This document shows, piece by piece, positions 40,400-64,000 of a stretch of 64,000 nt of DNA. Location: NCBI GenBank assembly GCA_019054805.1, contig JAHQIY010000004.1:4216001-4280000 (forward strand), in the 5' to 3' direction. Source of the stretch: Brachionus manjavacas. Lineage: Eukaryota > Rotifera > Eurotatoria > Ploima > Brachionidae. The translations under genes were made by a program, and so were the position numbers. Below the pieces are notes generated by a model. The model was not told the DNA's origin. It searched no databases and saw nothing but the letters and a program-made list of their open reading frames with translations. Numbering within the stretch: position 1 is the stretch's first letter; each line of letters starts with the position of its first letter.

Positions 40400-43300
40400 T
40401 TAATAATTCAAAGCACAGAGCATTGCGACGCCTCTCTTAATCCAATGGGTTTGTCTCTTATCGCTTGGTAGTTCTACACTAAATACAAAATTAGTTGAAT
40501 GGCCTGTGGTTGACAAAGTTCCAGCTCTGGTCAAAGTTTTGTATACCGGACAAACATATATTCCACTTGTTGGCTGTTGCCTGTTCACAGATGGCTTTAG
40601 CCAAATTAATGGCATTACTGAATAAAGCTCTTTTGGTTTCGATTCGCTCAATTGTCCTTTCTTCTTGTCCCATTTAGCACCTTCTATAAACAAACCACGA
40701 ATATAACATCCGTCTTCTGGAGCTGTGTCTATTTCATCAGTTTTCATTGTCAATATTTCGAATCCGAAACTAATTGTATCAATTGATATTACTTTACTGC
40801 GAGCATAATTCTGCAATGTTCCTGTTAAAAAGGCCTGTGGAAAGAAAAATCCGGAAATCCAGTAAACTTTGGGTAATCCGTTGGCCACCCAATTTTGAAT
40901 AAATTCCATTCTCAAAACCAAATCGGCCACCCAAGCAGCTAATGGCTTCAAGCTTGGATACGCAACTTTAGCCCACAGATTTGGCACTTGATTATTGAAT
41001 AAACTATTGGACATGTCTTCCAGCTCTTGGGACATAACTACAAGACCTTTCAGAGCCTTGAGTAAGTCTTGAAGTGTTTTATGTATTACAGACAACAATC
41101 TGTTATATCTTTAATAAAAATTTATAAATTTAAAAAATAATTTTTTTTTTAATTAATAAAATACCTAATTATTTCCTGTACTAGCACAGTATTCATCGAC
41201 TGTTCATACATCACTGGATATTTTTCCATAACAGCTCCAATATTAAGTGGTTTAGGAACTTTTTCCAATATATCCTTGGCTGTTTTTTCCATTATTTCCT
41301 CTCTCGAAATACCTCCGCCACTTTGTGTCTTGGGTTGTAAAAGCAACAAATCAGTTAGAGTTCTAAATGTTTCATTTTGAGCAAAGGTTATGTTGGCATT
41401 GTCGTGTAGACCGAATATTTCCGGTGTATCATTGATAGGTAGACTTCTGATGTAGGCCATGTAGGCTACATGCTCTGACGATGATGGCAATTGATGATAA
41501 ATTTTCGACTCATCAAAACTAAAATTCTCATCAGCCACAGTCGGGTTGTAAAAGTCCTGTAGTATGTTCATTATGCATCGTCTGTCCCAATCGTCAGTGA
41601 CTCGACCACCGTAATTAATGTGACCAGCTGTGTATTTGAGGACTTTGTACGGAATTTCCGAGTATTCCATCAAAAACATTTTCAATTGACTTAGACAAAT
41701 TCTCAAATCTCCATCAGTGAATTCGTATGGTATATTGAATCCGAGCGGGCCAAATTTTCGTCTTTCCAAGGTAACACCGTGAAAAAGACATAGGGAGAAG
41801 AGCAAAAATTTGAACACTTCCACTCGGTCTGTACATGAATTTAAAAAGTCGTCATTAATTGTTGTGTAAGATTTGAGCAAGTTGGCTTTGATACCGCGAG
41901 GTGGTTCTACGGTCATTTTGCTACCATTTTGAAGGATCATTACCGGAAATTTAGGACTGGGCATGCTTGTTAGCCAAAGTCTAAAGTCTTTGTGTACATG
42001 CTCGGGGTCAATTTGTTCGACTAGTCTTTCTAACGATGGCATCCAAGACGGTGCTAAATGACAATTTTGGAAAAACACCCAAAGACCCCGCTCCATGGCG
42101 CTTCTGGTCATTGCTTCAGCTCTAGGACCTTGGCCTTGACCTAGTGAAATAGCTGACAATTTTTTGGAAAATTTCATTTCTTCGGCAAATTTGTACAAAT
42201 CAGCTGCCGGATCAGTTCCTTGCGATAGAACAAAAATGAGAGGTGTTGAAGGCGACGAGTCCTTGAATACCAAATGCAACTCGGCAGTCTGTGGCTCAAT
42301 GAATCGTTGTCCGATATTTTCGGAGACAAAATCCTGCATGGCATTTGTAACTCGGTCTGGTCTCAAACACTTCAGGAAAGTGATTTTCTGAAATGAATCC
42401 AATTTTGAGTTCCATGGCTCTGGTAGCGACTCTCTGTGCGGCTCAGACGAGTCAAATATTTTCTTATAAACACCCAAGTGGTTTTTAAAATCCTCGACAA
42501 ATGTGTCGAATGATGCCAGCGATTCTAATGTTAGAATTTCACCCCAAGCTCGATCTGATATCCAATCTGGCGATGGGTTAGAAATATTTTTTGGTCTACT
42601 GGTGCCACCGGCCAAAAAGAACCGATACTCTTCCATTAATATTTTTTTGTCATTCATCATAATTCTGACCGTAAGCAAAAAGGCAAACAGTAATTTGTGC
42701 TTCTCGAACAAACTACGGCAAACATTGGTGTATAAATTGAATGTAAAATGTTCATTTACATTTGTTATCCTTTCCTTAAGTGTGTCGGCCTTTGCGGCAT
42801 TTTGAATGCTGCTCAAAAATATTCTCGTGAACCATTCTAGTGAATACTGGTACATTGGATCTATGTTGGCCAAATCACTGACACAAAAGAATAATATTTG
42901 TGTATTGATGGCTACTGGTACGTATTCACTGCGAGTTGCATCTATGTCTTTTTCGGTTTGTTCCGATACGACCACTTTTGATTTGATCTCAGTGGATTTG
43001 ATTTTGGACTGTTCCAAAGCGTTTATGAGCTCAATATCGTCAACTGGGTTTTCTGACTTGCTCAGTCTCAACAAAATGGTGTCTTCAATTTCTTTTAATT
43101 CATTTTTCATAATTGAATTGGAAATGATGAGTTGATTTTTAGCCTCTTCCAAATCGGGTCTTTCTTCGGCCACAACAACTCCCAACATTTGGTCCTCTAG
43201 ACCGCTAGGCGATAGAGTGAAATTTATCAATGTGACTTTGACTGATACTTCGGGAGTATAGTGCGGATTTGGCATTTTAGTTGTAATGTAAAATTTAAAA

Positions 43301-46300
43301 TCTTCGTGGTAGGGTATTACAGCATCGCCAAGCTTAATAACCAAGCTTCCGGATTGTTTAAATGTTTGTCTCAGAAGTACTGGCTCAAGGGCTGGATCTA
43401 GTTCAGTGGACACGTTCTCGAGTAAACACGGTTTACCGAAACGAATCGCGTTCTCAAGACTTCTTAAAAAATCTCTATCTGACAGTTTTATCACATCAAT
43501 GCCGTTGTCTTTTTCCAAGTTTTTGATCCATTTATTAGCTTGACCCTGGGGATCAATGAACAAAGGCCATCTTTGAGAAAATTGGACAATAATACCGTTT
43601 TGTACGGATAAGCTGTCTTTGGGCAAACCAGCTAGTTGCCAATTTCGGATTTTTACCGGGTCTCCAAGTGTTTTGACCACTTCTGGCGATTCAGTATGTG
43701 GAACTTTGTACTTAGTCAAGTGTTCTATCCATTTATGAGTCATTTGTTCCCTGTATTGACCCTAAAGTTTGAGAAGTTAAACATTTTGGTCATATTTTAG
43801 AGATAAATTTTTATTGATCAAATAAAAAATTATGAAAATGAAAAAAACTGTTTGTTTTTAACAGGCCTTTTATGTATTTTTTGTATTTTTGATTTAAAAA
43901 CAATGCGATTATTAAAATTAATTGACTATGTGCTAATTTCACAAATAATTTAGCTTTTAAGAAATGATCCAATTTATGAAAAAAGAGCAGCATTTAAACA
44001 ATGAATGAAAAAATTTTATAATTTTTTTAAAACTTAAAAAAGGTAATGGTAAAGCTTAAACACACGCAAAATCACTGCAAACTGTTTATCAATTTTGCAT
44101 CTCTTGAAAATGATAAAAAAAAACTAGGATAGCGCTTTTTGTACTTTTTAAAAATATTGTATCTCCTTTTTGGCATTCTGTTTTTAAATACTATATAAAC
44201 AATACAAAAAACCTTAAACGAGATCTGAGGTGGAACACTGGTTTAGGGGTTGGAGTAAATATAAAATTTATATTTTTGTCAATAAATTGAATTAGTTTTT
44301 TTATTTCAAGATAAAGAGCGCAAAAAGGATAGAGATCTAAAGAGTAGAATTACCAGAAAGTACTTAAGTACAGAAAGTACAGAAATTATGTGCTTTCTAA
44401 CCAAAAAAAGAATTTTTTTACTCTAAAGAGAGTATTTATTAGCCTCAGTTGTCCATAGGTAGACTAAGAGGAAAAGATAAAAACATTCAAGTTAATTAAA
44501 TTTTGTACTATAATGATTGATTAATCTTTTTTCAGCAAATTTTAGATGTATTTTTTTTGAAAATAATTAAGTATTGAATTAACTTACAAAAAAAGCTTGA
44601 AAATTTGAATCTAAAAACAAAATTCAACTTACAGTAAAAGGTCCCAGGTAAGCGATGAAACCCGAAGCGGCTAATACGTCTCCAATAACGTTTGAGATTG
44701 AATATTCCAGCTGTTTTACATTTTCAGCCCAGCGAATTTTTTCATCTCCCAAACCATTCACAAGCTTTAATTTGTGAACAAACATTACGACAACAAAAAA
44801 ACTTTAAAAATAAAATTTACTTTTCCAGCTCGGACTACTTTTTCCTCACATTCTTTGACTTTTACCTCATAGTCAGCTTTCTTGCGCACTGAATCATCAT
44901 ATTTAGCTTGTAGAGTTGCCAGTTTTTCCTCAACTTCCTTCAGCTTAGCTTTTGCATTAGCCAAATTCTTTTGATTTTCAGCCAATTCTTCTAATGCAAT
45001 GCGCTGCGATTCTCGCTTTGGCTCTACACTTTTATTAACAAAGTAATACTTGTACATAGCTCTGACCCAAGAGCAAATAGAGGTGCATGCTTTAGAAACC
45101 TGGGCTATGGCTGCTGGTAAAAATTTATCATTATTAATGTAAGGCTCAATTTTTTGAATAACTGATTCGGGAATGTTTTCTTTATCATAAGTGAACAATC
45201 CTTCTAAAAATTTTGCCGGATCTGACAACAAATTTCTAGCTGGGTCACTGTAATCATCAATCTTTGTTCCTGGTTTATCGCCAGCTACTTTTTTTGGCTG
45301 GATTTTTTTCATAATACAGACAGCTTCCAAAACAAGCTTTACTCCATCAGGCGGGTTCCTCATAGCTTTCACCTCGACTACATCATTTTTGTTCAAAGAT
45401 TTTAAGCTTGCCAGAGCAGCGTCCAAAGCCGGCAAAGCTTCATCTAAATCTCGCTGTGCATCATCAGCGATCGCTTTGGCCTCTTTAGCTTTTTTGCCAG
45501 CTTCTTCTTCCTCCTTTTGTACAATAGCTCTTGTTTCAGCAGCAACTTTAGAATCTACCGAAATTGTTTCCATAGTTGAAATTGTTTCTTGGACGGCTTC
45601 CTCTAACAAAGGCTGCATTTGCTCCAATTCTCCACGCAATTTAGTCACTTCTTTTTCAGTGGACAATAGTTTATCAAGACCAGTCTTGGTGCGTCGTCGG
45701 GCTTGTATCAGCTCGTTCTTTTTCATGCCAAAAATTTTTGAAAAAATGCTCAATAACTCGAGATACGAAGTTGGTGTCACATAATTGTGTCTACCTTGTT
45801 CTTCTTTGAATCTTAGTGATTCTTCTACAACGGTCTGGTGCATTTCTTGACAAATATTCATTAATCCATCAACGACTTCGTCCGAAGCTTCCAAATCGGG
45901 CATTTCTTGCAAAAATGTCATTGCCACTGATTCCAAAGCGTCTTTGGGCCATTCACTGAACCAATCAATTGTGCAGCAATTGACCAGCGCTGGAAATTGG
46001 CGCAGACGAGCGCGGAAAATTTCTCCAATTGGACTCATACAAACTACGCTGTGTAAGTTATTACGCACTCTTTTTGTATAAGCAGAGAACAAATTGGTCT
46101 TAGTTGGTGGAAGGCCAGCATCTTGTACGCTTGCTTTCATTGCAGTATAAATTTGATCCAATTCGTCTAAAGTGTAAATGTTTGGAACATCGCCAGAATT
46201 GAGAATATTATTCAAATCTTCCAAAAATGACTCATTTTTTATCTATATTTAATAGTTGTTTCATTATTTTTATTTTTATATTTTAAATATATTTACCTGA

Positions 46301-49300
46301 GTGTCACTAAACAAAAAAACCGTTTGCCGATTCTTCAGACCTGCGGCAATCATTATTTTTTTTAAATCCTCTCTCCATTCTGACATACCGTAGTTTTTGG
46401 CCAATTCAATTTGAAAACAGTCATACTCAGCCCTTTCATTAAAAATAATTTAATTTATTTTCATTTAATATTATTTTTTATTCTAAGTCTAAATAAATGG
46501 ATTTTAATTTTTAAAACAAATTTTTTAAATTCATTTAATTTCAATTTTCAAGTCAAATACTTTTCATCAAAAATAAAAAAATTCTTCCATCTAAAATTGC
46601 TGTCAAAAAGAATATTAGAGCTGATCAATAATTAATGTTTCTCCAGGTTGAGAAAAAATATTTTTCAAGTATTTTTTTTACAATTTTACAAACAAACAAA
46701 CAGGATAAAAAAATCAAAAAAAAAGTCTTTTTTAGACACGACTGGTAAGTTGGGGTTAAAAAATGGTTAAGAACTGATTGTTTAGAAATTAAAGTAGGAT
46801 AAAAATGATAATAATCTTTTATTTTTTAAGAAACTTAAAAATTATATCCTTTTTGCAATTGAGAATCAATTTAAAAATACCTCTTTTCCCCATCTTTTAA
46901 TACTTTATGCCCTTTTTTATGTAAACTTAATCTCTCTTACTTAAATCTGCCTAATTTGTGTTTTGGCATTTGTTAACAAAAATTAGATAAAGTAGATAAA
47001 AGCATTAAGTATGCCAGAAAAAGGTGTATTAGTAATATCAGTTCTTTTCTTTATTTCTAATAGTCAACGCGTGAATAATAATAAATTTGAAAATTAGATT
47101 CAACAAAATTAATTTTAAATTAGTTGAATATATTTTTTTTTCACATAAAATGTTTTGATGATTTATTTCCCACTAATTTTTAGTTTTTATAAATAAATAA
47201 ACATATTTACATGTGAGAGGCAAGTCTTGTAAGAGATTGTCGGCCCGAACCACCGACTCCAAGCAACAAAGCATTACCAAAAGGCTGACGAATAATTCTA
47301 CTAATTCGAGCAATATGTCTCATTGCATCCAAAAACAGCACCAGTCTCATTTTAGCCGAGTTAATTTGGTTGTAATCTTCTAAACTTTCATCAATAACTT
47401 TTTTCATCTTGAAACAAAATTTAGAAAATAACAAGCAATCATTTAATAAAATCTATATTACCAATTTAAAATCGCTTATTTCAGCATAAACTTTCGAGTC
47501 AGTATTTTGAACCATAAAGTCTCCATAAATAACCGGCTCATTTTGAATCACATCAGAATATTCCAAATTGAAATTATTCTTTATTTTTTCTTTTAATAAA
47601 TTTGTGAACCAATTACGGTCTTCGTCGTTGATCAGACGATCTTGGAATACACGACAACTTTCATGATACCAAAGTCTTAATAACTGTGGTACTGACTCAA
47701 TCGATCTAACTTCGGCCATCAGAATACCTTGAAATGTCTTGGACAAATCTCTCAAATTAAAGGTGTAATGACTTTTTGCTGGTGTAGGAAGAAGCTGTGC
47801 TGAAATGGTCTTGTAGACAGAAATGCAACTCTGAACCAAATTTGAAGCACATTCAGAAATTTTATCATTATTTTCTTCAAATAAAAAATTAAAAATCTGA
47901 TTGAATTTTTCTTAATTTTCCACTTACTTATCCACCAGTTAAGTATGGTTCCGAAAATTTTATTCATGCTGACATCTTCCATTTCCACAAAGCTCAAATG
48001 ATTGAAATGGCGGGTGAGTCGGCTAGTTACAGGATTACGACCTCCACCAGGAGGACCCATAGCGCAGCAAAAATTGATATCGACCAAATGACGGAAATCG
48101 CCTATGGCTTTTCGATCATACCAACCTCTAAAGTCTATCCACTGTCGTATCAATTCTATCGGTGGCTGAGCACCATATACTTCCAAAGCTGGCATATTCA
48201 AATCATCAATAAAAAAAATAAAGTATTTTCCCAACGGCGGACCATAAATGCCTTTGCGCCTTTTATCAAGCTTAGAGTCAATCAAATCCTGTGTTTGGTT
48301 TGCACTGGTCTTAGCTGAGAACACAATAAATTCAGGACTGTATTCTTTGGGCATTGTTCGGGTTAATTTATCAACAATAGTAAGTGTCTTTCCAGTGCCA
48401 GTGGGTCCAACGCATAAAACTGTTTTGTCATTTTTTAACAAAAATTCAATTAAATGAGCATTACGAATATTGTCAATTGTCGGAACAATTATGTCAGAAA
48501 ATTTTGTATCCGATGGCAAGTTAAGCTGTGGAAAATCACTCATCCAATTTTTCCATTGAATCTTTTAAAAAATTATACAAATTTCTTTGAAAAAATTTTT
48601 CTAATCAATTATTACTATTTTAACTTTTTTGACTTCCTCTTCGTTTTCATCTTTGTTTTCTTCTTCGTTCGAGAATATTCCTCCATCATCAAGCACATAG
48701 TCGTACACGATTCCCTCAGGCGGAAAACCCATTTTTAATCCATTTTTTTCAATTTTTTGTCTAAGCCAGTCGTTGAATTTAATGCGTCCGTCATTGTCAC
48801 AGGAAGCTCCCACTGACCAAGTCAAGGAAAACAAAAACCAAGGTTCTAGTAATTCTGGAAGCTTTTGAATAGCTTCTTCAGATAATGGTTTGTCATTCTA
48901 AAAAGAATTTTTATAAATAAAAGTATAATTTAATTTTATTTAACTAGCTAATTTGTGAAGCTTAATTTAATGCAATAGCAATTTTTTTTAATACTGATCA
49001 TGCTGAAATAAAGCAATTTAATTAGCGGCTAAAATTTGATTTATTTTCTAAATTCTAAAAAATAAATACGCGAAAAATATTCTGTTATTTGGTTAGTTTA
49101 ATAAAAATAGTTAGGTTAATAAGGTTTTATTAATAGTTAAGTGTAAAATATACCCGTATTAGCTTTGTTTTGTCAGATCGCTGTGATGTTTTAAAATAAA
49201 AAATAAGTGATGTGTTTTAAAAATGTCAATTTGTGAATTTATTTGGATAAAGTTTGGGGAAGTAAATATTTAAAAATTTATCTTTACTAATAAAAATATT

Positions 49301-52300
49301 CTGAATTTGAAAAACTTTTTTTTCATAAATCAGTGCCTCAAACTGTTTTGTTATAAAAACAGAAAAAATTGAATATTTTTAATCGTATAAAAGATTACTT
49401 TAAAATTAAGTTGGTTTAATTTTTTGTGTTTATAAGTTAATATTGCAAGCATGAAAAACTTGGTGTTTTTTTATGAATTTTGACTTTAGGTTTGTGATAT
49501 GATGATCCTTAAGCTAATATTTGTTTAAAAAGCTATCTACGCTCTGTTTTCCATTTTTTATCAATTGAGTATTTGTAAAAAAGCACCAAACGAAAGTAAA
49601 TTATCACTTATGTCAAAATTTTATAAGAAAACAAAGTTTTTCGTGTCTAGTCCGTTAGGTAAACTATGGTTCACCTATTACTGGGATGATTCTTGTTCTC
49701 AGGTTTTATGAACTATTAGTTCACCTTTTTTAAAAAAGGTAATGTAATGATAAAAAATAAGATAGATTAGATAATTACATAGAAAATTTAAAGTTGGGCG
49801 GAGTAGGAAAATTTTGCGAAATAGATGAATCTATGTTCCCCAAAGTCAAACTTATAAAGGGTGAACAATTTATTTTAATTTTATTATTTATGCTGAAGAG
49901 AAAGATTTAAGAAGAGAGCGCACTTAGGTATTTGGGATTATGGAAAGAGTAATACCAAGTCAACCAGATCATAGCAAATGCTATTTCTAAAGCTCCTCCA
50001 AAAAAAAAAAAATTTAAAAAACTATTAACTAATTTTTATATCAGTTTCGAGAATAAGGCATTCTATTAAATTTTGAGCTTTATTCAATTAACTCGCATTA
50101 TCTAAAAATCTTTCGTCTAATTCTATTTTGAACAAAAAAATTGGGTGAACCATTAGTTCACAAAACTTGAGAGCAAAATATTTCAGATAATAAGTGAACT
50201 ATGGTTCACCTAACCGTCTAGATCCAGTTTTTAATGATTGAATATAAAATTTAATCAAAATGAATTATTTATCTATTTTTTTTGCTTTTTAATGTTCATT
50301 TTTTTTTTCTATTTATTTAACTTAATATTATTTAACTATATATTTAGTTTTTTCATATGTTTCTAGTCTGAATGAGCATTTGCTCGGGAAAAAATAAATA
50401 ATTGAATTATTTAAAAAATTCAAAAAAAATTTTAAATATTTTTTTCAGATTTAAAATAAAAATCAAACTCATTCTATTTTACTAAAGAGTTTAATTTCAA
50501 ATGTGAAAATGCTTGCAATATTAACTTAAAATTATTTTTTTATATGAAACTGAAAAAAATATTTGAAACATCGCACTTTTTCAATGTTATTTCAACATTG
50601 GATACATTTTGTAATTCAAACAAAAAAAATTAAACCAGTTCCTAATGTAAATTATTTTTTATTAAGAATAATTTCTAGGAAATGAAGAATGAAATTATTC
50701 GTTAAAGCAAAAGCAGTGCTTAAAAAGTTAAAAATTAATGAAATATTATTTCTTGTGGAAAAACTGATTTTGTTTAAAAAAAAACTGTGAAAGTGTGAAT
50801 AATATTTGAATCCTGAGAATAATTTACCCCAAGTCTAGAATTCTTGAAAAATTAAATTAAAAATAATATATTTTGGGTTTTCTTAAAAAAAAAAATGAAC
50901 TTACCTCTTTTGGTCTGTAGGGAGCGAGAAAACAGTCCATCAGCTTGAGTAAACTAAAAGTCAAATTGCTATCCATTGTTGGAATAATTTCTTTAGCATT
51001 TTTGCGTATAAATTTTATTGAAGGCTTTAAACTAAATTAAAAAAATTTACACAAAACTAAAAAACCTACCTCTAAAAATATTTCGAAAAGATTATTTAAT
51101 TTTTCCTGATGGACGAAAACACTCTCAGGCAACTTTCGAATCCAGCATTCAACAAAAGGTTTTAGACCTAAGATACTCGGCTCTAGGTAAACCATGCCGC
51201 ATCGACTAACTGTAGCGGGACTTGCAACAGCAAGATCAGCTACTTCGAACATCATGGTCATAGCTTCGGTCATTTTAATTATTTCTCCATTTGTTAAGCA
51301 TAACTTTTTATTATCGTCCAAAACAGTGTTCATATTTTCTATCCAAACAGCATCTACTGGACCATCGAACAAATACCAACGTTTTTCATCGTTTTCGGCT
51401 TCAACACCTTGACCCATTAGAACAGACAAAATACCATCAGTCCATTCGTGAGTCATTAGATCAAATTCACCATACAATTGACCCATGGTAATCGACTTAG
51501 GATTCAAAATGTATGTGTGGACAACTTCGAAAGGGGAACCAGCAGGTGAAGGCTGGCCAGCCAAAGAAGTCATTGCTGCCTTTAAAGTTTCATAACACTT
51601 TGTTTTACCAGATCCTGTTGGACCGACCAGCATAAGTCCGTGACGAACTACTGTAGTTTCATAAAGTTGTATACACTTAAGGATAAAGTTGTCCACATCT
51701 TTTATATCCAATTTGGAGCATGATTTTCTAAGCGAGCTCTCTAAGGCACCATAGTCAATCGGTTCTTCTCTAAAATTAAAAATTTTAAAGAACCCTTTTA
51801 AAATTTTTATTTCAAATTTTACTTTATCTTGGGGAATAGATCAGATACTATACCATTGAACAGTTTTAAGTCATCTTGTAAAAATTTAGGCACATTGACA
51901 TCTCGGATAGCTCTTAAACAAATCAATTCCTTTTTTGAAAAAAAAGATAATTTTTTGGTTAATTAGTTTTTAAGAATTTTACTTCATTCAAATCCGGGTT
52001 TTGCCTCTTAAGATTTCCTGCAGCTGAAATTACAGACTTTACTGCCCTCATACCAAAATCGTAGTGGTCCTGTGAGCTAAGCTGCTCGGATGAAAGTTTA
52101 AAAGTAGTTACAATCTTTTTGGCCAAGGTTTTAGCATCCGAAAAACCAAAAGAAAAAAGCGATATCTCAGCAATAAGCGCATAATCCGGTACCATCATAG
52201 CCACAGGTCGAAACAAAGCCTTATTTTAAAATTTTATTCAAAAATAAAAAAGAATGTCTTATACCTTTAAATTGTCAGGTAATTCGGTGCGACCAGCATA

Positions 52301-55300
52301 ACCAGGATTCATAGTGATGAAAACTGCACATGATGGTTTCAAAGCAATTTCAACCCCCTCAAATATGAATCTTTCAGCCTTTAATAAGAAAAATTATAAA
52401 GTTGCTAAATTGATATTTATTAAGTGATAAATAAGCTATGCTATTAAAAGAGCAAAGATCTACAAGTTTCGTATATGATAGAATAATCATTCAAAAAAAA
52501 AAAGATTTGTAAAATAAAAATAAATTATTTGGTAATTAAATTGCTTGAGAAGGAGAACAGTTTTTTTTTAAACTAAATTTAAAATAATTGAACTAATCTC
52601 TAAAATTAAAGAGAGGGTTCAACTTGAAGACAAGATTTAAGTTGGGTAATGCTGTATTCTGTAAACATATCTTTCGTCAAGTATTCGGAAAAAGTTTTAC
52701 TTGTTTTGGCAATTTCATCAAATTCATTAATTTTTTAAAAACTTAAAATTTTCAATTATACTTTTTATTAGTTAAAATTTTTAAAAAATTTGAATATTTT
52801 TTCTACTAAGTGATGTTTAATGGGTAAATTGAAGTTAAATTTCAAGTTTAAATAATCAAAAAGATAAAATCAATTTCAGATTTAAAAAAATGTTCTCCAA
52901 TTATACAGAGATTTTTTTTTTTAACATCGCCTTCAAGGCGTTCATTGAAATAAATAAATAAAATTAAAAAAAATATATATACAGAGATAAACAATATTTA
53001 GAATGAGCAGGATTTTCATGGCATTTTTTATGTAAACTTTTGAATTTTGATATTGCAGAATTTAACTAGACTGGTTTTTAAACTTAAAAATATATCTCTG
53101 ATTAATTATCTTATCGCTTTGATTAAAAATAGGATCATAATTAATTAATTTGTTAATTTTAAAATTATTTATTGTGTTAGCAGTAAGAATAATAAAAATA
53201 TATAAATAATTAAATTTACATTTTTATAAAAATGACAAGGATAAACAAATTTGATCTTTTTCGGATTAAAGAGAATAAAAAAGTATATTTTACATGAACA
53301 GCTTTTTTTTTTAATATTTATTTTTTAATAATTTTTATTCAGATTTTCAAAGTTTGGATTAAAGAGGGTAGATTGTCAAAGAGATGAAAAATTAAAAATT
53401 ATCGAAAGGTAAATGATAATAAAATCAAAAAATATTCATCATAATATTATTCGATTTACCACTATTTAAAAGATTATTAGAAGAAAATCTTGAATATTAA
53501 AATTAACTTTATTTTTTTAAAACTCGATCACAAACTAAAATATTTCCGAATACCTTTAAAAAATAAGTTTACAAAGTTCAGTAGTAGGATAAGTCCATTT
53601 TGAAATTAATAAAATTTTTTCATGCTTAAAAGATTTTTAAAAAGTCTGATTCAAAAATTAATTAATTTTTTAATTAATTTAATTGAACTAGTTTAATAGA
53701 AAATGGAAATAAATTTTTAGAAAAAAAATTACGCCGCTTCGAGCCTATTAAATTTTTTTTTTAAAAATTAATTTTGTGTCACGCATAAAAATGAGAATTA
53801 AACAAACCCGTTGAGTAAGAGCTTGTTGAATTTGTTGAATTTGTTGAGCGACTACTGATAGCACTTCTATATCGATACGATTAAACTCGTCAAAGCAAGC
53901 CCAAGCTCCAGCACTAGATTGATTTTAAAAAAAATTGATTTGTTTTTAAGCCTGGTTTCATTTTTGCCAAGGGTAAGGATCAAGGGTATAAGCTTAAGCA
54001 AATATTTTTTTTAATTCTTAAATGATTTTTTAGCTATTCAATTGTATCATTTTTTTCTACCTTATTTTTTAAATTTTTTTTCAAAATTGAAATCTGTTCA
54101 GCTACAACAGATAAAACTTCGATGTCCATTCTATTGAACTCGTCAAAGCAAGCCCATGAACCACCACTAATTCAAGACAAATTGATTATTTGATTAACAC
54201 TTGGCAATTTTACTAAGACTAAATAGAGCTTGTTCACTTACCTGGCTAGACCTTTTAAAAATTTTCCCATAGCCATAAAATCAAGCTGGTCCGAGCAATT
54301 GAATACAACACATTGAATCGCCATCGCTTTGGCCAAATCTTTTGTAGTTTCTGTTTTTCCAGTGCCAGCAGGTCCAGCTGGTGCACCACCAAATTTTAAA
54401 TGAAGTGCCCCTGTTAGTGTCAAATAGCATCTATCTGTTAGAGGTGTAATTACCAGACGTGAGGAGTTTCCTAAGTATTCGTAGCCGTATAAAAATTCTG
54501 CGTTTACGGCTCTGATATACAAATTATCATTCATGTAATAGTACCTTTAAAAAAATAAAATTTTTTTAAGAATTAAAATTTTTATTTATTGCTAACCTAA
54601 GTTGACTGATCCATTCAAAGTCATTTACATCAGAAACTTTTTCATTAAGGAGATTGATTACCACATCTCTTGCATGTACTTCAATTACAATTAAAGCTGA
54701 TAAGGTTTGTCTGGCTTTGGGACTTAATTTTCCACGGACTAACTCTCTTAAGTCATCTAATTCATTTAGTTGTTTTTGGTGATACTCTGGTAAGTTGTTT
54801 TCTTCAAGAGCTTTGCTGACTAAAGTTGTCCAGTAGGTCTGGCACCCAGCGATGACAACTTGACCAGGCCATTCAATAACCCAACTTGTCCGCGGTTTCT
54901 TAAAGATAAAAATAATTTTTTGAAAATAATTTTTTTCTCAGTTACAGTTTTGTAATCTTCTAAAGAATCACGAATTATTTGTCTCAAGCTCTCTTTCATT
55001 ACTCTTTCTATTTCAAGCATCCAGTCTTCGACATTTCCAGTCGGATAGATATTTTCTCTAAATTCTACCCCTTCATTTTCTGCCGAGTACATGGTAGATA
55101 TTCTCATGTCTTTTTCGAATTTGACTCGGTAAATGCTTTCAAAACACTTACGTAAATGGGGCTGAACAGCTTCAGGATCTTTGGTTTTCGAAAGAATTTC
55201 CAAAAGCTCGTCATCGGACAAAAAATAAAATCTTGGAAACGAAGTTCGTTTTGTTTCTAAATATTCGCTCAAACCTTTTTGAACTTGTTCTAGTAATTTA

Positions 55301-58300
55301 TTGCACTCTTTTAGCTGATCTCTGAGACGTGCATCTGGACATAAACTGATTACCTTAAATAATAAAAAAATGATTTTTAAATAAAGTTTATTTATTTTTT
55401 AATTATATTGAATTTTAAAGCTTTAAATTTTATTTTATCTAGTTAAAACTAAGTTATTTTTTTTAAAACACCAAGGACCGGCTATTTCTGACAAAAAATT
55501 TGCTTAAATGTTGCATTCGTTCCATAAAAGTCTGTGACATGATAAGCAGAATATTTAAAATACCGTTTTCAAAGCTTCAAAACAAATATTAAAACATGTA
55601 AATTTTATTGATCGTTAACTAAAAAATTAAATTTGAATTTTTGTAAAAATTTCAAATTGACACTGCCAGTCCTTTGAGTGTTAAAGTAAATTTTAATTTT
55701 TTTAATAGTAAAATAAAAGATCAAGTATCATTTGTTTGCAGAAAAAATATATAAAATTGTCGGATGATGGAAGAAATAAGATTAAATTAATATGATAAAT
55801 TTAATATGCATTTTAAGACGGAGTTGGGTACAATATTGATACGGAATTTTTGTGAATTTTTAAATAGTTAGATGAGGTTAAATGAATTGAGAATCAAATA
55901 ATTTTTAATTTTTAAACTTAATTTATTTATTTGTTACAAATATTCAATTAAATTTTCAAGTTCATTTATTCAATGCGGAAACTAAAGTTTTCAAAATTTT
56001 TACTAAATAAATCACTTAATAATTCAAAATTTTTGTCAAAGTAATTTATTAGCCAACTAAATTTACAATAAAAATTGAAAATTTTCTCAAAATAAAATTC
56101 AAAAAAGACTATTCATTCATTTCATTTTTCCAAGTGTACTATGCGTGTTTAAACTTATCAAATTTATATATTATATTTCTATTAATTTTTTTAATTATAA
56201 GAATAAGTTTTTTAGTTTAAAAGAAAATGTTTTTATGTTTTAAGAAACATTTTATATTTTTCTTCATCTGCTTAAATTAATTTAATCGAAAATTTGTATA
56301 TAAAAACAAAAAAAATGAAATATTTTACTGTGTTCTCTTTGAAAAATTCAGTTTGTTATTAATTTAATTTATATTTTGATTGCAAATTTGTTTAAAAACT
56401 TATATTTACAAGCAATCTAAAACTGAATTATGTCATGCAGATGACAAAACTCTTGAAATTAAATTTGCAATTAATTTCAATACTTTAAATACTTCAAGCA
56501 TTAAATTTTAGATAAAAATAATTAATCATTGTAAAATGAGTTTTAATTCACAATCGACAATTCGTAAATTTAATTTATTATTGAATGAAAAATAAAATAG
56601 AAAAATCTAATTTATAATGAACTTAAGGTAAAATATTACGCCGTCATTTTAATGATTAAATAGTCATATAAAATAAAATTGATTGTCATATAAAAATTAA
56701 ACGGGTTTAGGGACAGAGCACTGGTTTAGGGATTTGAGTATGTTGTAGATTAGAGAACTATTAGTTAAAATTAAAAATTAATAATTAGACTTTAGTCTAA
56801 TTATTAATTTTAGTCGCGGATTGACTAAAATTTATGTTGAAATTTTTAATTTAATTTTTCATATGGCGATTTTATTTATTTTTTATATGAAAATTTAATT
56901 ATTGACATGACGGGTTTATTTGCATCCTAAACTTAATATTGCTGTATTTTTGTTCCTTTTTTAAAAACATGATTTAAATTGAATTGAATTTTTATTCTCA
57001 TTTAAAGAAAACAAAAACAAAAAAAAATTTTCGAATTTTTTTATTTTTCAATAAATGTCTCTAATTTAATGTTTTTATAAATTTATCTTTTAAAGTTTAT
57101 CTTAATTAATCGAATTTAATTATTTGTTTTTTGATTCATTAGTTTAATTATTGTTTCATTTTATTGGGCTAAGATTGAATTCTTGAAAAATCTTTGTTAC
57201 AAAAAATGCTTATAAATAAAACTTATGACTTGAATTTTTTTTTCATGAATACCAAAATAAATTGCCCTAAGAAAACAAAATTTAAAATCAGTGTTTAAAT
57301 TATTTCTTAAAATATTAAAATATGATAAGCAATTCTTATTTAAATAATTTTGAAAATGATATAAAAAAAATCATTACTTATCATTAGAAAAGTTTATCTT
57401 TTTTTTAAGTAAGATTTTAAAGTGAAATAAATTTATTTGTTGACATAGAACATTTATTTCGGAAAAAAAGAAATTAATTAAACAGAAGGAATATTTTGAA
57501 TTTAGAAGGATCTTTTGTAAAAAAAAAGCACTTGAATTAGATCTTAATAGTAATTTGATAATCGAAACAAAAAAGCAAGTGAAATCTCATCTTGAAAATT
57601 ATCTCTGAATTTGAAGAATAAAATTAATTACCTCAATATTTTATCTAATTTTTACCATCATTACCAACTCTAGTTTCGAACTCGTCACGTCCTTGCTTAT
57701 CAAATACTACAATCGTTAGAGAAAAATATTATCACAAAAAAACTAATCACGAGGCTTCCCAAATTGGATTCAAATAGATTTTTTTTTCTATTAATTTAAA
57801 TTTTTTAACCTGAACAAAAAATTTAAAAAATGACTGAAACTGAAGTTCCTATAGACCCAAATCGATTGCTTGTCGATGGAGTTCTAGAGAGCTGCACTGA
57901 CGAAATGCTTCAATTGTACATTAGTCTCATATTTAATGCCGACTTGGACGAGACTTTTAAAATTGAAGAATTTCGCCGCAACAGGCGCCGCGTTTTGCTC
58001 AAGTTTAACCGTACCTTTGACTTTGAGAAGGCCCTTGAAAGGCAAAAAAAAATGCCTGAGCTGACCAGCAACTTGATAACTATAAGTCAAGTAAAGATTC
58101 CCGACACCATCCGAGTTTCTGAGCTGGCCAATAGCTGTACCAAAGAAGTCCTTAACCTTTACTTTTCAAACTCTAAAATGAGCCAAGGCGGTGACATTAA
58201 ATCAATCAAACTTTTTGTCCATGAAAATAAGGCTTTGATTCAGTTTGCCGATTTTAACATCATAGATCAAATAGTGGCCAGAACTCACATTATTTGCGAG

Positions 58301-61300
58301 AGTTTGGTCAAAATAGACAAGTTTTATGGCCCCATTGAAGACGAGTTTTTTCTCGAAGAGGAAGAAGCCTTGGAACAAAGTGAAATTTCCACTGGAAGAA
58401 AAAAATCATTGGCAAGCTTGGCTAGCGTCAAATCATTCACAACACCTCTGAACACCATCGACAAGACTAAAATTATTTTGTCCGACATTCAAGAAAACAT
58501 AAACATTCAACAGCTGGACTTTTATATTCAAATTTTGTGCAGTCGCCAAGAGATAAACAGCATCCACTGGAGTTTGGAAAACAAGAGCAAACTTCTAATT
58601 GATTTCAAAAAAGAAATTGACATAAACAAAGTTTTGACTGAGTTTAACTCAAACAATTTTAACAATTTAAACTCGAAACCAATTCAAATCGAGACAGTTA
58701 ATTTGACTCGAAAATTGGTAGTATTGGTAAAAGACATTAAGCCAAAGTTGTCGCTTAAACTCGACTCTCAAAATGAAGATGAAGATTACAAGCCGGAAAC
58801 AATACCGGCCACCAGAGACTTGTTGGATTTGTATTTCTGCAATAAGCAGAGAAGTGGCGGAGGCGACATCGAGTCTATTGAGAGAAAATCCTCGCGATAC
58901 TGGATCATAGAGATGAGAGACCAGCGCGTGGTCCAAAATATTCTGAGCAGAAAACACAATGTGGACGACAAGCCCATAAAAGTTTTCCCCTATTACGAAA
59001 ATTTTGGTCTGCCCTACATGTTCAGACCCATCTTTGATGACCTATCTAGCCGTTCGGTCATCTTTAAACTAAAGTTTAAAGACGAACGATTGCGCTATTT
59101 TTGTAAGGTGAAAAATTTACACAAAAAACTGAATGAAATACTGAGCGAATCGAACGCCGAGTCCAAATACAACAAGCAAGAGTCGAACATATTGTATGTG
59201 AACTATGTGGAACGTTTAAATTCCAAAGTTCCGTACACGGAACGCATGTGGCGTCTCAAAGTCAAAGAGTCCATAGAGTACTTTTTGCAAATATTCAAAT
59301 TTGAAAAGCTAACCCTCAGTCATCAGCAATGGCTGACCATTTCCAAGACCAAACAATTAAATGGCTATTTGTTGACCAAAAGTAGCAAGAGCTCAGATGA
59401 CAACGAAATCTACCAAGACACGGACTTGGTTGATGCATCAGCGGGAGACAAGATCAAGTATATTAGCAACAATTGTGCCATAATAAGCATTAACGAAACG
59501 GCCAGCAATGTGGAAATAAGCATTGTGGGACCCAATTCGGAAGTGGACAGATTTATTGTCAAAATAAAGGATGTTATTTGCAAGGCTTATTTTACTTTTG
59601 AGCTCGAAGAGAAAATTATTAAATTCAAAACTTATTTGTACGAGTGTGAAGAGCTGCTGACCAAATGGTTGCACGAGGCGGATGGTGTCGATGATAGTGA
59701 GATTACTTTGGCATCGGCTAGGTCCAATGACAGCGACTCGTTTTCGGCTAATTATTCCAAACGAAGCGATGGTGGCAAACTGAACAAGAGTAGGAAAAAT
59801 ACAATTGATGAATTTTTGTCCAAGTTGGAGCGCGATCACTTGGATATGGAGCTTTCGTATGGCAAATTGTTCCAAGAGTTGGGCTACACATTTTTGACAG
59901 GTGGTGTGCAAGAGAACGGAGAAGAAGACGATGGCGAGTACAAAGATTTTAATGATCGCTTGACAACTAGCCTAGATGAGAGTGTGGTTCTTAAACAAAG
60001 CGAGCAGACCGAAAGTCAAATGGACAAGATTAAGTATACACTGGACGATTTGAGGAATCGTATAAACGATATGAGAAAAAAGTTTAGACAATTTGTGATC
60101 AAGTCGAAGAGGTCCAAGTCGCTCAAAGAAGCTGATTTAAGTGAGGATGGAGAGTCAGAATTTGATGATATAGACAATGAAGAGGACACTGAAATGATTA
60201 AGCTTTGCATTTATGTCAAAGATCAAGCGAAAATAGTCACTTTTAATATGAACCGAAAGTGCAAAGTCAAAGAACTAAAGCAAGTGTTGTTGGAAAAATG
60301 TGCTGATGCTGAAATTGAGTCTATCAATGAGCTTAAGCTAACTTTTAACAGTGTCGAGTTGACCAATAATAATTATACCATTACTGATTATGATATTGGT
60401 GACAAGAGCACCATTACACTTGAATTCAAATAGATTAGTTTGATTAAATTAATTAAGATGGTTTAAATCTTAAATAAAGTATTGAAATTAAATTTTTTTT
60501 TCACATCCTAGCTACAAATTTTTAAAATTGAAATTTTTATTTAAAGAAAATAATTTTATATGCTTATCTGTTTAAAATTCTAATGAAAACAATTGAAATT
60601 TGAAACGCGTAGCGGTCAAGTTAAAAAATGAAGTATGAAATTATCGAATAAATAAAATCAAGCAATCTTTAAATATGCACCAAAACAAAATAATTCTCTA
60701 TTAACTTTTAACTTTTTAAAATCATTATTATTTAACTTTAAATAGATGCTTTGTTGAACCTTACTAAAAAATTTTGATTTTTTCCCAATTTTCTTCAATT
60801 TGACTCTTCGTCTGTGAAAGGAAAGGCAAAATTTAAATTTTTTAAAAATAGGAAGATGCTACGTGCAGATAAAATATCTTTTCGCAATATCTTTATAGTA
60901 TCAAAATTTTCAAAATGGAATACAACCCTTAATAAAAGTTCTTTGAAATTTCAATTTACAAATACTGCTATCTTTTGCTAGAATTGTCTACCTAGAGATA
61001 AAATATCCTTCCGTAGTCATTCTCTTAAAAATATTCTTCATTTTAGGACATTCTTCTGGGTTTTAAAATAAATATAGAAAAATAATAATAGAAAAACATT
61101 TGGAATTATTGAAATTGGTTTTTCAATCTGATGGAATGATTTCTTTACCAAGTCATCTTTATAATTACGCTTAAGTTAAAAGATATCTTTTAGAAAAAAA
61201 GGTAGTGAACAATAAATGACATTCAAGGGGAGACTAGAAAATTTCAGCTACTTAGAAAAAGAATGTAAACTTAATTTGACTGTTTTAAATTTTTAAAGGT

Positions 61301-63473
61301 TTCAAGACAATAAAATTTTGAGATCATAATACCTTTGCAGTACATCCACTTCTAATAAATATCAAAGGATCTCTCTTTTCAACACAAGCAAAAATGTTCT
61401 TAAAAATATTTCATAATATCAAGACAATGCTTTCATTTATTAGTTATAATACAATGATTGAAGAAAAAGATACAATCGTCAAATAAATCAAAATGAGGAA
61501 GAGCTTAAAATCCATTTAAATGGTTTTTATTATTAAATTTATAGTATCAAATTACTAATTATTTTTTTTAACTAATAATTTATATTTTTAAATGAAATAG
61601 TGAAGAAAATAGATTCATGGTTCTCAAAAAAAGAAAAATTGCCACAAATTTGCAATTTAATTTTGTTGAATGTAATTTGGATTGTGATTTTCAGAAAATG
61701 ATTATATTAAAATAATATACCCAATATCAAATAGTAAAAAAATTAAAAAATTTTATTTAATTTTATCTTAATTTAATCTTATTCTTAATTTCTTAAAAAC
61801 TTAAGTTAAATTATTCTGACTTTTTTTAATATAAAACTTTTTTTTAATGTATTTTTTTTTATATAAATATATTAAAAAAAATATTTATTAATTTTAGTGA
61901 ATATTTTTTAAAGAAAAATAAAATATATATATATAAACTAATTCTTACCTCAGGATTTTCTTTAGCTTGTTTCATAATTTTCCGCCACATTCTCTCCATC
62001 GTTTGATATCTTTTACTCTCAACAGGAAGTTGTCTTACAATATCTTCAGAAGAAAAAATTGGTTCCAAATACAACCATGATCGTTGACAAACCAACCATT
62101 CATCTAGTACGTCCTAATAAAAAATCAAAACTAGAATATATTAGAATTATTTAAAAATTATTATACCTGAGTAATTTTTAACTTATTTTCCCAAGACGAT
62201 ATTCTCTCCTCAAAGGCTTTTTTAAAAGGTGAGAATGACATACTCTGAGTCATTACAATATGATCGTCCAAAAGCTGGGAAATTTCATCCGAAGCCTTGA
62301 TAATAGAAGTTCCTGTATTCTTGTATGGAAGAACATCAAATTTAATAGACTTCCATTCGCCTTCCATTTTGTCTAAAGCTTGCTCAATTGTGTACTCTTT
62401 ACCGGCAATTTCTGCCACTTTGGATATTTTATCTATGTGGCGATCAAAGCCCATTTCGAGACATTTCTTGAAAGTAAGATCCTTTTTGGGACGCACCGGA
62501 AGTTTAAGTTCCTCAGTCAAAATCTCCCAATGTCTATTTCTCATACCTGGATTACGCAGCGCTTGGATCAAAGGAATATTTGGACGGAACTCTTCTATTT
62601 GATTCTTGATTTCAACAGCCACATTCTGAACACCTTTAAGTTTAAAATTTATTTAAGCAAGAAAAAAGATAATGATTTTAGACATTCATGCAATTTTGTC
62701 ATATCATGCATCATTCTTTAACACTTAGCTTCCCTAACAATTCGCAACTAATATTTAACACCTATACTTAGAATACATTTTATGTCCTCGTCAAAAAATT
62801 CATCTTCAATTTTTTCTGTCGCAATAGATTCAATTAAAATGTAAGTATTCAAGTGAAAAGACTTACTTTCAGCATCCTGGAATTGTTTGATTGCTTTATG
62901 CATTGATTTATAGGCTTCGGTTACATTTTTTTCAATATTTTCTGCATCAATGAATGAAATAGCATCGTTCATCCAGCTATCGTACCATCTTAGCCAGTCT
63001 GATGTGGTTATCCATAAATTTCTGAATGGTTCAAAGTCTTTTAATAGTTTGTTTAATTTTTCGTACTAAAGGAAAATTAAAAATAATTATTAAAATTATA
63101 AAGATAAATTTAATTGATTTATTTACATTTGTGACTGGGATTCCGAATAATCGTTCTCTATTATTGTACAAAGTGGCAAATTCCTGGCACTCCTTGAGAC
63201 TTTTATTAAGACGTCTGCACTCATTTGCCACTTCATGGGCTTTATCCAAATTTGCATGCGAAGACAAGCCAGCGACATTCATCTAAAAAATTATTTGAAT
63301 TTTTTTTCTAGGATATAAGCCAAACTCTTACAATCAGAGAATCAAGTTTTTCATTAAGACTGGCCGTATCATGCATTTGAAGTTTTCGGAATCTTTCTTC
63401 ATCTTCGGTATGCTGCTCTTCGACTTGGATTATCATATTCGACACTTTCCACGACCATGATAGTAAACTCCAT
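40400..63473 (-). CDS. DNAH3: axonemal dynein heavy chain 3 (partial, 5' end off window)
   Basis: Motor subunit of a single-headed inner-arm axonemal dynein. Exons (minus): 63473-63332, 63282-63127, 63065-62867, 62633-62167, 62113-61949, 55353-54946, 54898-54597, 54544-54242, one of 54166-54061 / 53913-53808, 52378-52265, 52219-51983, 51929-51823, 51769-51070, 51024-50905, 48897-48616, 48561-47928, 47874-47462, 47407-47211, 46432-46297, 46242-44821, 44764-44633, 43761-41165, 41108-40400. They join in frame to about 3,348 residues of a usual 4,100. Tail/linker: [39 protein letters not shown]-loops: AAA1 [11 protein letters not shown]2 [11 protein letters not shown]3 [11 protein letters not shown]4 GVGGSGRQS. 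The stalk coiled coil and microtubule-binding domain are in 46242-44821, AAA5/6 in 43761-41165. The C-terminus [35 protein letters not shown] is DNAH3-like rather than DNAH7, 12, 6 or 1. The first about 750 residues lie to the right. Confidence 0.95.
43762..44632 (-). other. 871-nt DNAH3 intron
   Basis: AT-rich, no exon. A GC-richer patch at about 44230-44260 contains CACTGGTTTAGGG, also found in another DNAH3 intron at about 56719-56731, suggesting a dispersed repeat. Confidence 0.5.
46433..47210 (-). other. 778-nt DNAH3 intron
   Basis: AT-rich intron between the exon ending RLASH(M) and that beginning [10 protein letters not shown]. No exon or clear element. AATACCTCTTTTCCCC (near 46877) and GGTGTATT (near 47023) form a poor inverted pair only. 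Confidence 0.5.
48898..50904 (-). other. 2.0-kb DNAH3 intron
   Basis: Holds the Merlin-derived element at 49651-50216; the rest is AT-rich without exons. Confidence 0.6.
49651..50216 (+). mobile_element. Merlin-derived element with about 80-bp inverted repeats
   Basis: The left end CCGTTAGGTAAACTATGG and the right end, reverse-complemented, CGGTTAGGTGAACCATAG start repeats that stay alignable for about 80 bp (both reach ATGAACTATTAGTTCACC or its near match). TCTAG flanks both sides. Inside, the plus strand reads [19 protein letters not shown], then [20 protein letters not shown]. This is the first catalytic block of ISXO2-like transposases (GGxGxxVEIDES.f) and the segment after it. Stops and the small size show a non-autonomous deletion derivative. 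It sits in a DNAH3 intron. Confidence 0.8.
52379..53807 (-). other. 1.4-kb DNAH3 intron after the alternative exons
   Basis: Contains a LINE-type tail at about 52911-52975; otherwise AT-rich with no further copy of the alternative exon that I can find. Confidence 0.55.
52911..52975 (+). repeat. retroposon 3' tail
   Basis: T-tract, then the hairpin CGCCTTCAAGGCG, TTCATTGAAAT and AAATAAATAAATAAA. Same hairpin-plus-AAAT layout as the other non-LTR tails in this window, but a different sequence. Confidence 0.5.
53808..53913 (-). CDS. DNAH3: DNAH3 alternative exon b (AAA1 Walker B)
   Basis: A 106-nt exon with acceptor CTAG and donor GTTTGT. It encodes [20 protein letters not shown], then [15 protein letters not shown], and joins the same upstream exon (..GLAS) and downstream exon (AERFIFEG) as exon a. 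CFDEFNR is the AAA1 Walker B motif. The sequence is closer to vertebrate DNAH3 ([18 protein letters not shown]) than exon a is. Confidence 0.88.
54061..54166 (-). CDS. DNAH3: DNAH3 alternative exon a (AAA1 Walker B)
   Basis: A 106-nt exon with acceptor TTAG and donor GTAGAA. It encodes [20 protein letters not shown], then [15 protein letters not shown]. It has the same length, start phase and end phase as exon b, which lies 147 nt downstream, and shares 22 of 35 residues with it. The Walker B residues are intact. Using both exons would shift the frame (106 is not a multiple of three), so only one can be used per mRNA. Confidence 0.88.
55354..57829. other. DNAH3 intron, part upstream of the nested gene
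   Basis: AT-rich. It must hold the promoter of the nested plus-strand gene. A long palindrome lies at 56775-56812 and a dispersed GGTTTAGGG-containing patch at 56703-56740. Nothing else recognised. Confidence 0.5.
56775..56812. repeat. 18-bp perfect inverted repeat
   Basis: AAAATTAATAATTAGACT, two T, then its exact complement AGTCTAATTATTAATTTT. It lies about 1 kb upstream of the nested gene; role unknown. Confidence 0.6.
57830..60433 (+). CDS. intronless protein: PARP14-like RRMs plus ubiquitin-like C-terminus
   Basis: An 867-aa protein from one uninterrupted ORF, with visibly higher GC than its surroundings, lying inside a 6.6-kb DNAH3 intron on the opposite strand. It starts at ATG after an A-rich leader and is followed by AATAAA. 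Visible parts: four RRM-like repeats at about residues 10-80, 88-165, 212-295 and 297-390. The second and fourth contain [16 protein letters not shown] and [20 protein letters not shown], the latter being the typical PARP14/PARP10 N-terminal motif. A region of about 395-605 has KH-like alternation similar to the part after the RRMs in PARP14. An acidic, coiled-coil-prone linker follows (about 630-785). Residues 789-867 ([45 protein letters not shown]) have a ubiquitin-like pattern without a terminal GlyGly. No macro, WWE or ADP-ribosyltransferase domain. Function unknown; RNA or protein binding is inferred. Confidence 0.85.
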   Translation: MTETEVPIDPNRLLVDGVLESCTDEMLQLYISLIFNADLDETFKIEEFRRNRRRVLLKFNRTFDFEKALERQKKMPELTSNLITISQVKIPDTIRVSELANSCTKEVLNLYFSNSKMSQGGDIKSIKLFVHENKALIQFADFNIIDQIVARTHIICESLVKIDKFYGPIEDEFFLEEEEALEQSEISTGRKKSLASLASVKSFTTPLNTIDKTKIILSDIQENINIQQLDFYIQILCSRQEINSIHWSLENKSKLLIDFKKEIDINKVLTEFNSNNFNNLNSKPIQIETVNLTRKLVVLVKDIKPKLSLKLDSQNEDEDYKPETIPATRDLLDLYFCNKQRSGGGDIESIERKSSRYWIIEMRDQRVVQNILSRKHNVDDKPIKVFPYYENFGLPYMFRPIFDDLSSRSVIFKLKFKDERLRYFCKVKNLHKKLNEILSESNAESKYNKQESNILYVNYVERLNSKVPYTERMWRLKVKESIEYFLQIFKFEKLTLSHQQWLTISKTKQLNGYLLTKSSKSSDDNEIYQDTDLVDASAGDKIKYISNNCAIISINETASNVEISIVGPNSEVDRFIVKIKDVICKAYFTFELEEKIIKFKTYLYECEELLTKWLHEADGVDDSEITLASARSNDSDSFSANYSKRSDGGKLNKSRKNTIDEFLSKLERDHLDMELSYGKLFQELGYTFLTGGVQENGEEDDGEYKDFNDRLTTSLDESVVLKQSEQTESQMDKIKYTLDDLRNRINDMRKKFRQFVIKSKRSKSLKEADLSEDGESEFDDIDNEEDTEMIKLCIYVKDQAKIVTFNMNRKCKVKELKQVLLEKCADAEIESINELKLTFNSVELTNNNYTITDYDIGDKSTITLEFK
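60473..60478 (+). terminator. polyadenylation signal of the nested gene
   Basis: AATAAA 39 nt after the stop codon (60431-60433); good spacing for a genuine transcript end inside the DNAH3 intron. Confidence 0.6.
60479..61948. other. DNAH3 intron, part downstream of the nested gene
   Basis: AT-rich with slightly GC-richer broken sequence between 60800 and 61500 (for example repeated AAAATATC and TCTTTT runs). No exon of DNAH3 and no recognisable element. Confidence 0.45.
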
Positions 63474-64000
63474 CTAAAAAATTAATTCATTTTAAAAATA
63501 ATTTTTTTTAAATGATTGTGAAAAAGTTCATCAGTTCAATAAATGCTATCATCAATAATAAAAAAATAGTTAATTTTGGAAATTTAGTTTTTTTTTAAAT
63601 AAATTTTGAATTTTAGATAGATCTTTTTTTTAGAAGCTTATATTGAAACCAAAATTTATTTTATTTAAATTGTATATTAAAATTTATCATAGGAAATTTA
63701 TTGAAAATATTTCAATAAAATTACAACATAAAATTTAGTATTCAACAATGCAACAAAAATTTTCCAAAACTCAAAAAATAAAAACGACAAATATCATGGA
63801 AGAAACCTTTTCTGACTAAATTAGTGTTCAAAATTGCATCAAACAAAATATATTGTTCGAAAATTAAACATTAAAATAAAATAAAAACAAATAAACTGGT
63901 ATAAAATAAACTTTGATTTGACAGGTTAATTTTAGAAAAGAATAAACTATTATATTTTTTTAAACTTAAAATGGAGCCAACTTTTTATTGAATTTTCGTT
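63474..64000 (-). other. start of a DNAH3 intron, runs off the window
   Basis: The exon beginning at 63473 enters with two nt of a codon still to come from upstream, so another exon must exist to the right. This AT-rich stretch shows no exon. Confidence 0.6.

Follow-up and report, generated by a model that had tools for sequence, protein, structure and literature searches.

The DNAH1 gene of the rotifer Brachionus manjavacas contains two adjacent exons of identical length, here called A and B, which encode alternative versions of the same segment of the AAA1 domain. We consider it probable that A and B are mutually exclusive coding exons of this axonemal dynein heavy chain, formed by tandem duplication of the exon encoding the Walker B strand and helix. 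On the best reading, their exclusivity would be enforced at least by the reading frame, and the gene can probably build two versions of the DNAH1 motor. The preliminary description of this locus had already proposed mutually exclusive exons. The proposal stands as the best reading and is strengthened because an A-like exon is found in the DNAH1 model of Brachionus calyciflorus (P0001) and second copies of the exon are found in models from a bdelloid rotifer (P0244) and an annelid (P0241); overall, it is partly supported. P0001, P0241 and P0244 are gene models.

Reading frame and identity of the gene

Coordinates refer to the window, i.e., the whole 64-kb stretch of DNA that was analyzed (Table 1). 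Exons A and B each complete a split serine codon (AG|T) at their start, and each ends on a codon boundary. The coordinates, the equal lengths of 106 nt, the phases, the GT-AG ends and the peptides given for the pair in the preliminary description were correct to the base. When either A alone or B alone was spliced with its neighbors, the frame remained open across all 623 codons tested. The catalytic core WACFDEFNR is retained, in frame, by either exon. The Walker A motif of the upstream exon and the Walker B motif CFDEFNR are intact in both isoforms. Joint inclusion of A and B had been said to shift the frame, and it does: a stop is reached at codon 245, the peptide ending in KNLKNK CWSLGLL. 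Skipping both exons had been said to delete Walker B. The deletion holds, but the frame is shifted as well, with a stop at codon 215. For the spliced products predicted here, it is thus shown that only the inclusion of one exon at a time yields a full motor.

Table 1. Features of the DNAH1 gene around the exon pair (positions in the 64-kb window)
Feature	Position	Strand	Remarks
DNAH1 within the window	40400..64000	-	further 5' exons upstream, beyond the window
Upstream constitutive exon	54242..54544	-	AAA1 Walker A (GPAGTGKTE); donor CAG|GTAAGT
Intron 5' of exon A	54167..54241	-	75 nt
Alternative exon A	54061..54166	-	106 nt; phase 2 to 0; GT-AG
Spacer between A and B	53914..54060	-	147 nt
C-rich stretch of the spacer	53947..53995	-	TACCCTTG twice; candidate splicing element
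Alternative exon B	53808..53913	-	106 nt; phase 2 to 0; GT-AG; ancestral-looking type
Intron 3' of exon B	52379..53807	-	1429 nt
Downstream constitutive exon	52265..52378	-	sensor I region

The modelled exons were compared with the gene region in an ungapped scan, which covered the exon list minus its last four exons; at least exon 51929-51823 is absent from that list. With a BLOSUM62 score of 120, A and B resemble each other beyond chance, as no other printed score exceeded 52. Within this scope, the scan showed no further copy inside the 1429-nt intron and no other duplicated DNAH1 exon. A stretch of 41 open codons in the same intron (52609-52731, minus strand) has a coding-like composition and no other match in the genome.

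The gene had been named DNAH3 in the preliminary description, which was wrong. When the long 3' exon was compared with the Protein Data Bank, three DNAH1 chains were the best matches (1441, 1437 and 1428 bits), followed at lower scores by DHC2 of 8glv (1106 bits), DNAH7 (990) and DNAH3 (934). A motor query of 2702 amino acids, assembled by a rough gene model, found B. calyciflorus DNAH1 (P0001) first in a protein search, with 92% identity; among the best 120 of 2968 matches, P0001 was followed mostly by DNAH1 of other animals, at 67-73% identity. Because the bit scores and the protein search both rank DNAH1 first, the gene is, by sequence comparison, DNAH1 and not DNAH3, and belongs to the inner-arm dynein d class. 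The peptide of the exon aligns with approximately residues 1625-1660 of the DNAH1 chain 8j07_g6, and we take it, from dynein structures, to be the AAA1 Walker B strand plus helix H3. A predicted fold of an AAA1 fragment of another dynein from another genome (P0124), with a poor mean pLDDT of 47, suggests no more than that a helix precedes a hairpin there.

Within the genome of 114 Mb (61 contigs), the Walker A exon matched at least 14 strong places and two weak ones, and the exon A peptide matched at least 15 Walker B places. When these were grouped by position, 14 dynein genes were found, of which 13 have one Walker B place each and DNAH1 alone has two. A second locus or haplotype was rejected as the source of the pair, since the genome contains no second full-length match to the 601-bp stretch.

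Several other features were noticed in the window. An open reading frame of 868 amino acids, with PARP14-type RRM domains and a C-terminal ubiquitin-like domain, is nested on the opposite strand in a large DNAH1 intron (57827-60433, plus strand), and an open reading frame for a rhodopsin-type 7TM receptor (Pfam 7tm_1; 38038-39234, plus strand) adjoins the 3' end of DNAH1. Exons of an apparent BBSome subunit gene, another ciliary gene, lie at 2189-3428 on the minus strand, with Pfam BBS2_Mid in 2884-3186. An Exo_endo_phos2 match at 5911-6336 (plus strand) is accompanied by a SKICH match that is weak and below the Pfam cut-off; we assume that this stretch is possibly an inositol polyphosphate 5-phosphatase.

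Divergence and splice signals of the two exons

Exons A and B are identical at 70 of 106 nucleotides and 22 of 35 amino acids. In codons 1-22, about 11 differences fall on 14.5 synonymous sites and about 4 on 51.5 nonsynonymous sites (p = 1e-6 in a Fisher test with the counts rounded), i.e., in this part synonymous change is saturated and the protein is conserved. For codons 23-35, pN was 0.55 and pS 0.49, with no signal of constraint between A and B. The earlier suggestion that both copies appear to be under coding constraint is therefore upheld for the first 22 codons and finds no signal in codons 23-35. Judged by these substitutions, the duplication is old, with conserved heads and diverged tails, and both copies look alive.

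The tail of exon A is A/T-rich, intron-like and rich in K and N, and the end of its helix is more basic than that of exon B. The tail of exon B is identical to the canonical form at 8 of 13 residues and to Adineta copy 1 at 9 of 13; exon B looks like the ancestral type. Gene conversion of the A tail from another dynein gene was rejected, as its identity to the 13 other tails of this genome is only 2-4 of 13.

An A/T-rich tail with many K and N residues and no purifying signal relative to B is also what could be seen if exon A were a decaying duplicate that has stayed open by luck and is rarely or never spliced, so that the only motor is made from B. The head of A, however, is strongly constrained over saturated synonymous sites, and the exon retains its exact length, its phase and both splice sites.

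The splice sites themselves were scored against 18 DNAH1 introns, 10 of them resolved on P0001 and 8 taken from the model, with leave-one-out scoring. An earlier control set consisted of 16 model introns, of which three were then dropped: 64323-63474 and 62776-62634 because they were unsure, and 48633-48562 because its donor was re-placed at 48615. The acceptor scores were 0.53 for A, 1.3 for B and 9.96 for the shared downstream acceptor, with 3.48-9.97 in the 18 controls, all on small training sets and with a model behind part of them that favors T-rich acceptors. The acceptors of A and B fall below every control in both sets (18 and 16). The donor scores were 9.17 for the shared upstream donor, 6.75 for A and 3.03 for B, against 2.4-8.25 in the controls. 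Upstream of the acceptor, A has 8 and B has 9 T among 17 positions; since the controls have 4-14, the weakness of the two acceptors lies in a finer pattern. That the acceptor of A is the weakest of the set would again suit a decaying duplicate, but the acceptor of B is hardly stronger, and of the two exons B has the weaker donor.

Strong outer and weak inner splice sites would ease double skipping. This would fit a reading in which both exons are used, but the main effect of A is to produce frameshifted transcripts whose decay tunes the level of DNAH1, with no separate A motor. The early stops after joint inclusion and after double skipping would fit it too. Exon A alone, however, is in frame and encodes the Walker B residues, which would be needless in a poison exon, and we regard such level tuning as the sole role of A as improbable.

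Candidate mechanisms of mutual exclusion were also compared. Sixteen of the 18 control introns are 45-61 nt long, whereas the spacer between A and B is 147 nt, so that steric exclusion is not expected. Donors of the U12 type have their own consensus, and on comparison with it no such donor was found. Competing RNA pairing, suggested in the preliminary description, was unsupported by the energies. The duplex between the upstream intron and the spacer (-20.3 kcal/mol) was reached in 18.8% of 500 shuffles, that between the upstream and downstream introns in 16% of 100 shuffles, and that between the spacer and the downstream intron in 87% of 100 shuffles. The longest exact match, 8 nt, was reached in 44.5% of 1000 shuffles. 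A loop-out stem of 8 bp across exon A (TTGCCAAG/CTTGGCAA, 54200-54207 with 53964-53971) stands out (0.2% of 1000 shuffles) only under a GC filter that was set after viewing. The C-rich stretch of the spacer is a candidate splicing element: its two copies of TACCCTTG are the sole occurrences on either strand of the window, and the best 46-nt GC content, 0.43, was reached in 2.3% of 1000 shuffles. The TACCCTTG stretch and the 8-bp stem are both leads that were picked after inspection.

If A and B are mutually exclusive, then one of the two weak acceptors would be chosen by the spliceosome under the influence of trans factors and local elements. Products that include both exons or skip both would be frameshifted and then removed by nonsense-mediated decay. 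Inclusion of exon B would give the ancestral-type motor. Inclusion of exon A would give a motor with the same active site and with a more basic helix end leading into the following beta-hairpin. The likely outcome would not be a dead motor, but altered AAA1 kinetics or contacts in some of the cilia. Regulation, tissue use and effects on the motor are what we infer here; motor-kinetic effects and use in particular cilia, for which the preliminary description had named corona, flame cells and sperm, are speculation.

The exon in Brachionus calyciflorus and beyond

The preliminary description had called for a search in related species, and such a search found a single A-like exon in a second species of Brachionus. 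The B. calyciflorus model P0001 aligns along the entire 3' part of B. manjavacas DNAH1 and has one exon at the A/B place, with standard spacing, ending QQISNLQKNMKIK. Its tail is identical to that of A at 8 of 13 residues and to that of B at 4 of 13, while its first 22 residues are nearer to B (21/22) than to A (18/22). Over the exon, identity is 26/35 to A and 25/35 to B; alignment of the two isoforms to P0001 across the region gives nearly equal scores (2369 and 2362). A script resolved 12 of 17 junctions of P0001. Since exon A was set in beforehand, this result does not discriminate between A and B; a fair comparison comes from the match of the P0001 protein to each exon, which is slightly better for A (147) than for B (136).

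Two residues of the tail bear on this comparison. Among 315 Walker B segments, i.e., those that fitted the pattern in 314 fetched proteins, tail position 6 holds I in 313, the two exceptions being a single V and the L of P0001; at tail position 9, A (299) and G (15) account for every segment except that of P0001, which has N. Exon A has both the L and the N, and the 13 other dyneins of the B. manjavacas genome have neither L at position 6 nor N at position 9. Exon A is identical to P0001 at only 26 of 35 residues, compared with 92-99% for the exons on either side, and therefore evolves fast. We take the exon of P0001 as a fast-evolving orthologue of exon A, the link being the 13-residue tail. 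Changes at two nearly invariant positions and the low identity to B. calyciflorus could be read as signs of decay; yet the single exon of P0001 has the same two unusual residues, and we consider it unlikely that A is a decaying duplicate. Spliced Brachionus fragments were not recognizable in the protein database among the best 120 of 936 matches, which are mostly without a named organism; the best identity to the A query among these 120 was 77%.

The search for the pair in further relatives revealed second copies of the exon in an annelid and a bdelloid. When the exon region of P0001 was used as query, a protein of the annelid Paralvinella palmiformis (P0241) ranked above P0001 itself, and a protein of the bdelloid Adineta steineri (P0244) was also listed. 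The gene model P0241 has the exon twice, with 59 extra residues, and its copies are separated by 23 residues that resemble a translated pyrimidine-rich intron end. In the gene model P0244, one complete copy comes first, and after it stand the final 24 residues of another, which makes 24 extra residues. Long DNAH1-like proteins numbered 194 (120 from the 2702-aa search and 74 new ones from the exon-region search). Spacing was measured in 178 of these, 16 remaining unmeasured; it was standard in 176, and only P0241 and P0244 were longer. In both models, annotation may have shifted the start of the second exon and so rescued the frame. Such patched gene models are as expected if two exons of this kind are exclusive by frame. 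These two models share with Brachionus a doubling of the same DNAH1 exon, complete in P0241 and with two thirds of the second copy in P0244; unlike in Brachionus, the order of the conserved and divergent copies is reversed, and the doubling is seen only as patched-looking gene models.

The divergent copy is the first of the two in Brachionus but the second in both Adineta and Paralvinella, which makes repeated duplication no less likely than one ancient pair. We give even chances to parallel, independent duplications in each lineage, with no ancient shared pair, of an exon that is small, intron-bounded and prone to duplication. Trees grouped Brachionus A with P0001 (support 0.88) and Paralvinella copy 2 with mollusc isoforms and Octopus (support 0.93), and the first group did not join the second, in line with separate origins; these trees, built on 36 positions and 20 hand-chosen rows, have little power. 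Against separate origins, it is the same exon of the same gene every time, and in a compatible frame. Parallel duplication is compatible with mutually exclusive exons in DNAH1 of B. manjavacas.

Possibly, but more doubtfully, DNAH1 has had a swappable catalytic exon in AAA1 since the early spiralians, and rotifers, annelids and probably molluscs, by mutually exclusive splicing, make two inner-arm dyneins that differ in their AAA1 helices, for different cilia. The mollusc tail cited for an ancient pair is AMQIMTITRA, which occurs in Haliotis isoform X3 and in Ruditapes isoform X2. The Haliotis tail (AMQIMTITRAQLQK) is identical to Paralvinella copy 2 at 9 of 13 residues and the Ruditapes tail (AMQIMTITRAQKAK) at 8 of 13.

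Matching stretches in prokaryote genomes numbered 27, and two of them encode a relative, both in one Verrucomicrobiaceae MAG from a pond. Two contigs of this MAG carry eukaryotic dynein genes (L017, 5001-5252; L018, 3302-3553), probably as contamination from a protist. Contamination by a rotifer was rejected, the two relatives being only 68% and 63% identical to the query.

Known systems and meaning

Mutually exclusive exons are of a known kind; the doubled DNAH1 exon in the Paralvinella and Adineta models is new here. The preliminary description knew of no described case among DNAH genes. In the open-licence literature, viewed mostly from listings, no axonemal dynein with mutually exclusive or duplicated alternative exons was recognized, and one dynein heavy chain precedent was found, the cytoplasmic chain DHC1 of Schistosoma. 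A mutually exclusive exon of S. mansoni DHC1 served as a test case in Pillmann et al. 2011 (PMC3228551). As far as the available part of that paper goes, it resembles the DNAH1 pair in that a homologous exon of a dynein heavy chain is duplicated, has identical length and was judged mutually exclusive. It differs in that the chain is cytoplasmic and that both ends of the exon fall within codons, whereas the DNAH1 exons run from phase 2 to 0; therefore it is not the A/B exon of DNAH1. In arthropod muscle myosin heavy chain clusters, such as Daphnia Mhc1, a motor domain is likewise tuned by swapping homologous exons, but the protein is a myosin with several clusters, whereas DNAH1 has one, known from sequence alone (PMC3228551, same part).

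In human genes, frame-shift exclusion is a frequent means of keeping exons exclusive, according to the part of the survey PMC5740500 available to us; as in the DNAH1 pair, joint inclusion of such exons shifts the frame. The main text of the survey names no DNAH gene: 'dnah' does not occur in it, and 'dynein' occurs once. The accessible parts of PMC1779584, PMC12965833, PMC3162530 and PMC10112910 contain nothing on duplicated dynein heavy chain exons as alternatives; PMC12965833 describes, in the part available, exon duplications that were resolved during the annotation of Y-linked genes. The word 'dynein' is absent from the main text of PMC3303723.

The doubled exon recurs at the same place in a bdelloid and an annelid model, so that transcriptomes that already exist could be used to check it. 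Should both isoforms be produced, an axonemal dynein would have its primary ATP site adjusted by splicing and not by a separate gene. In that case, the pair would also offer a natural test of the influence that the helix following Walker B has on the stroke of the motor and the beat of the cilium.
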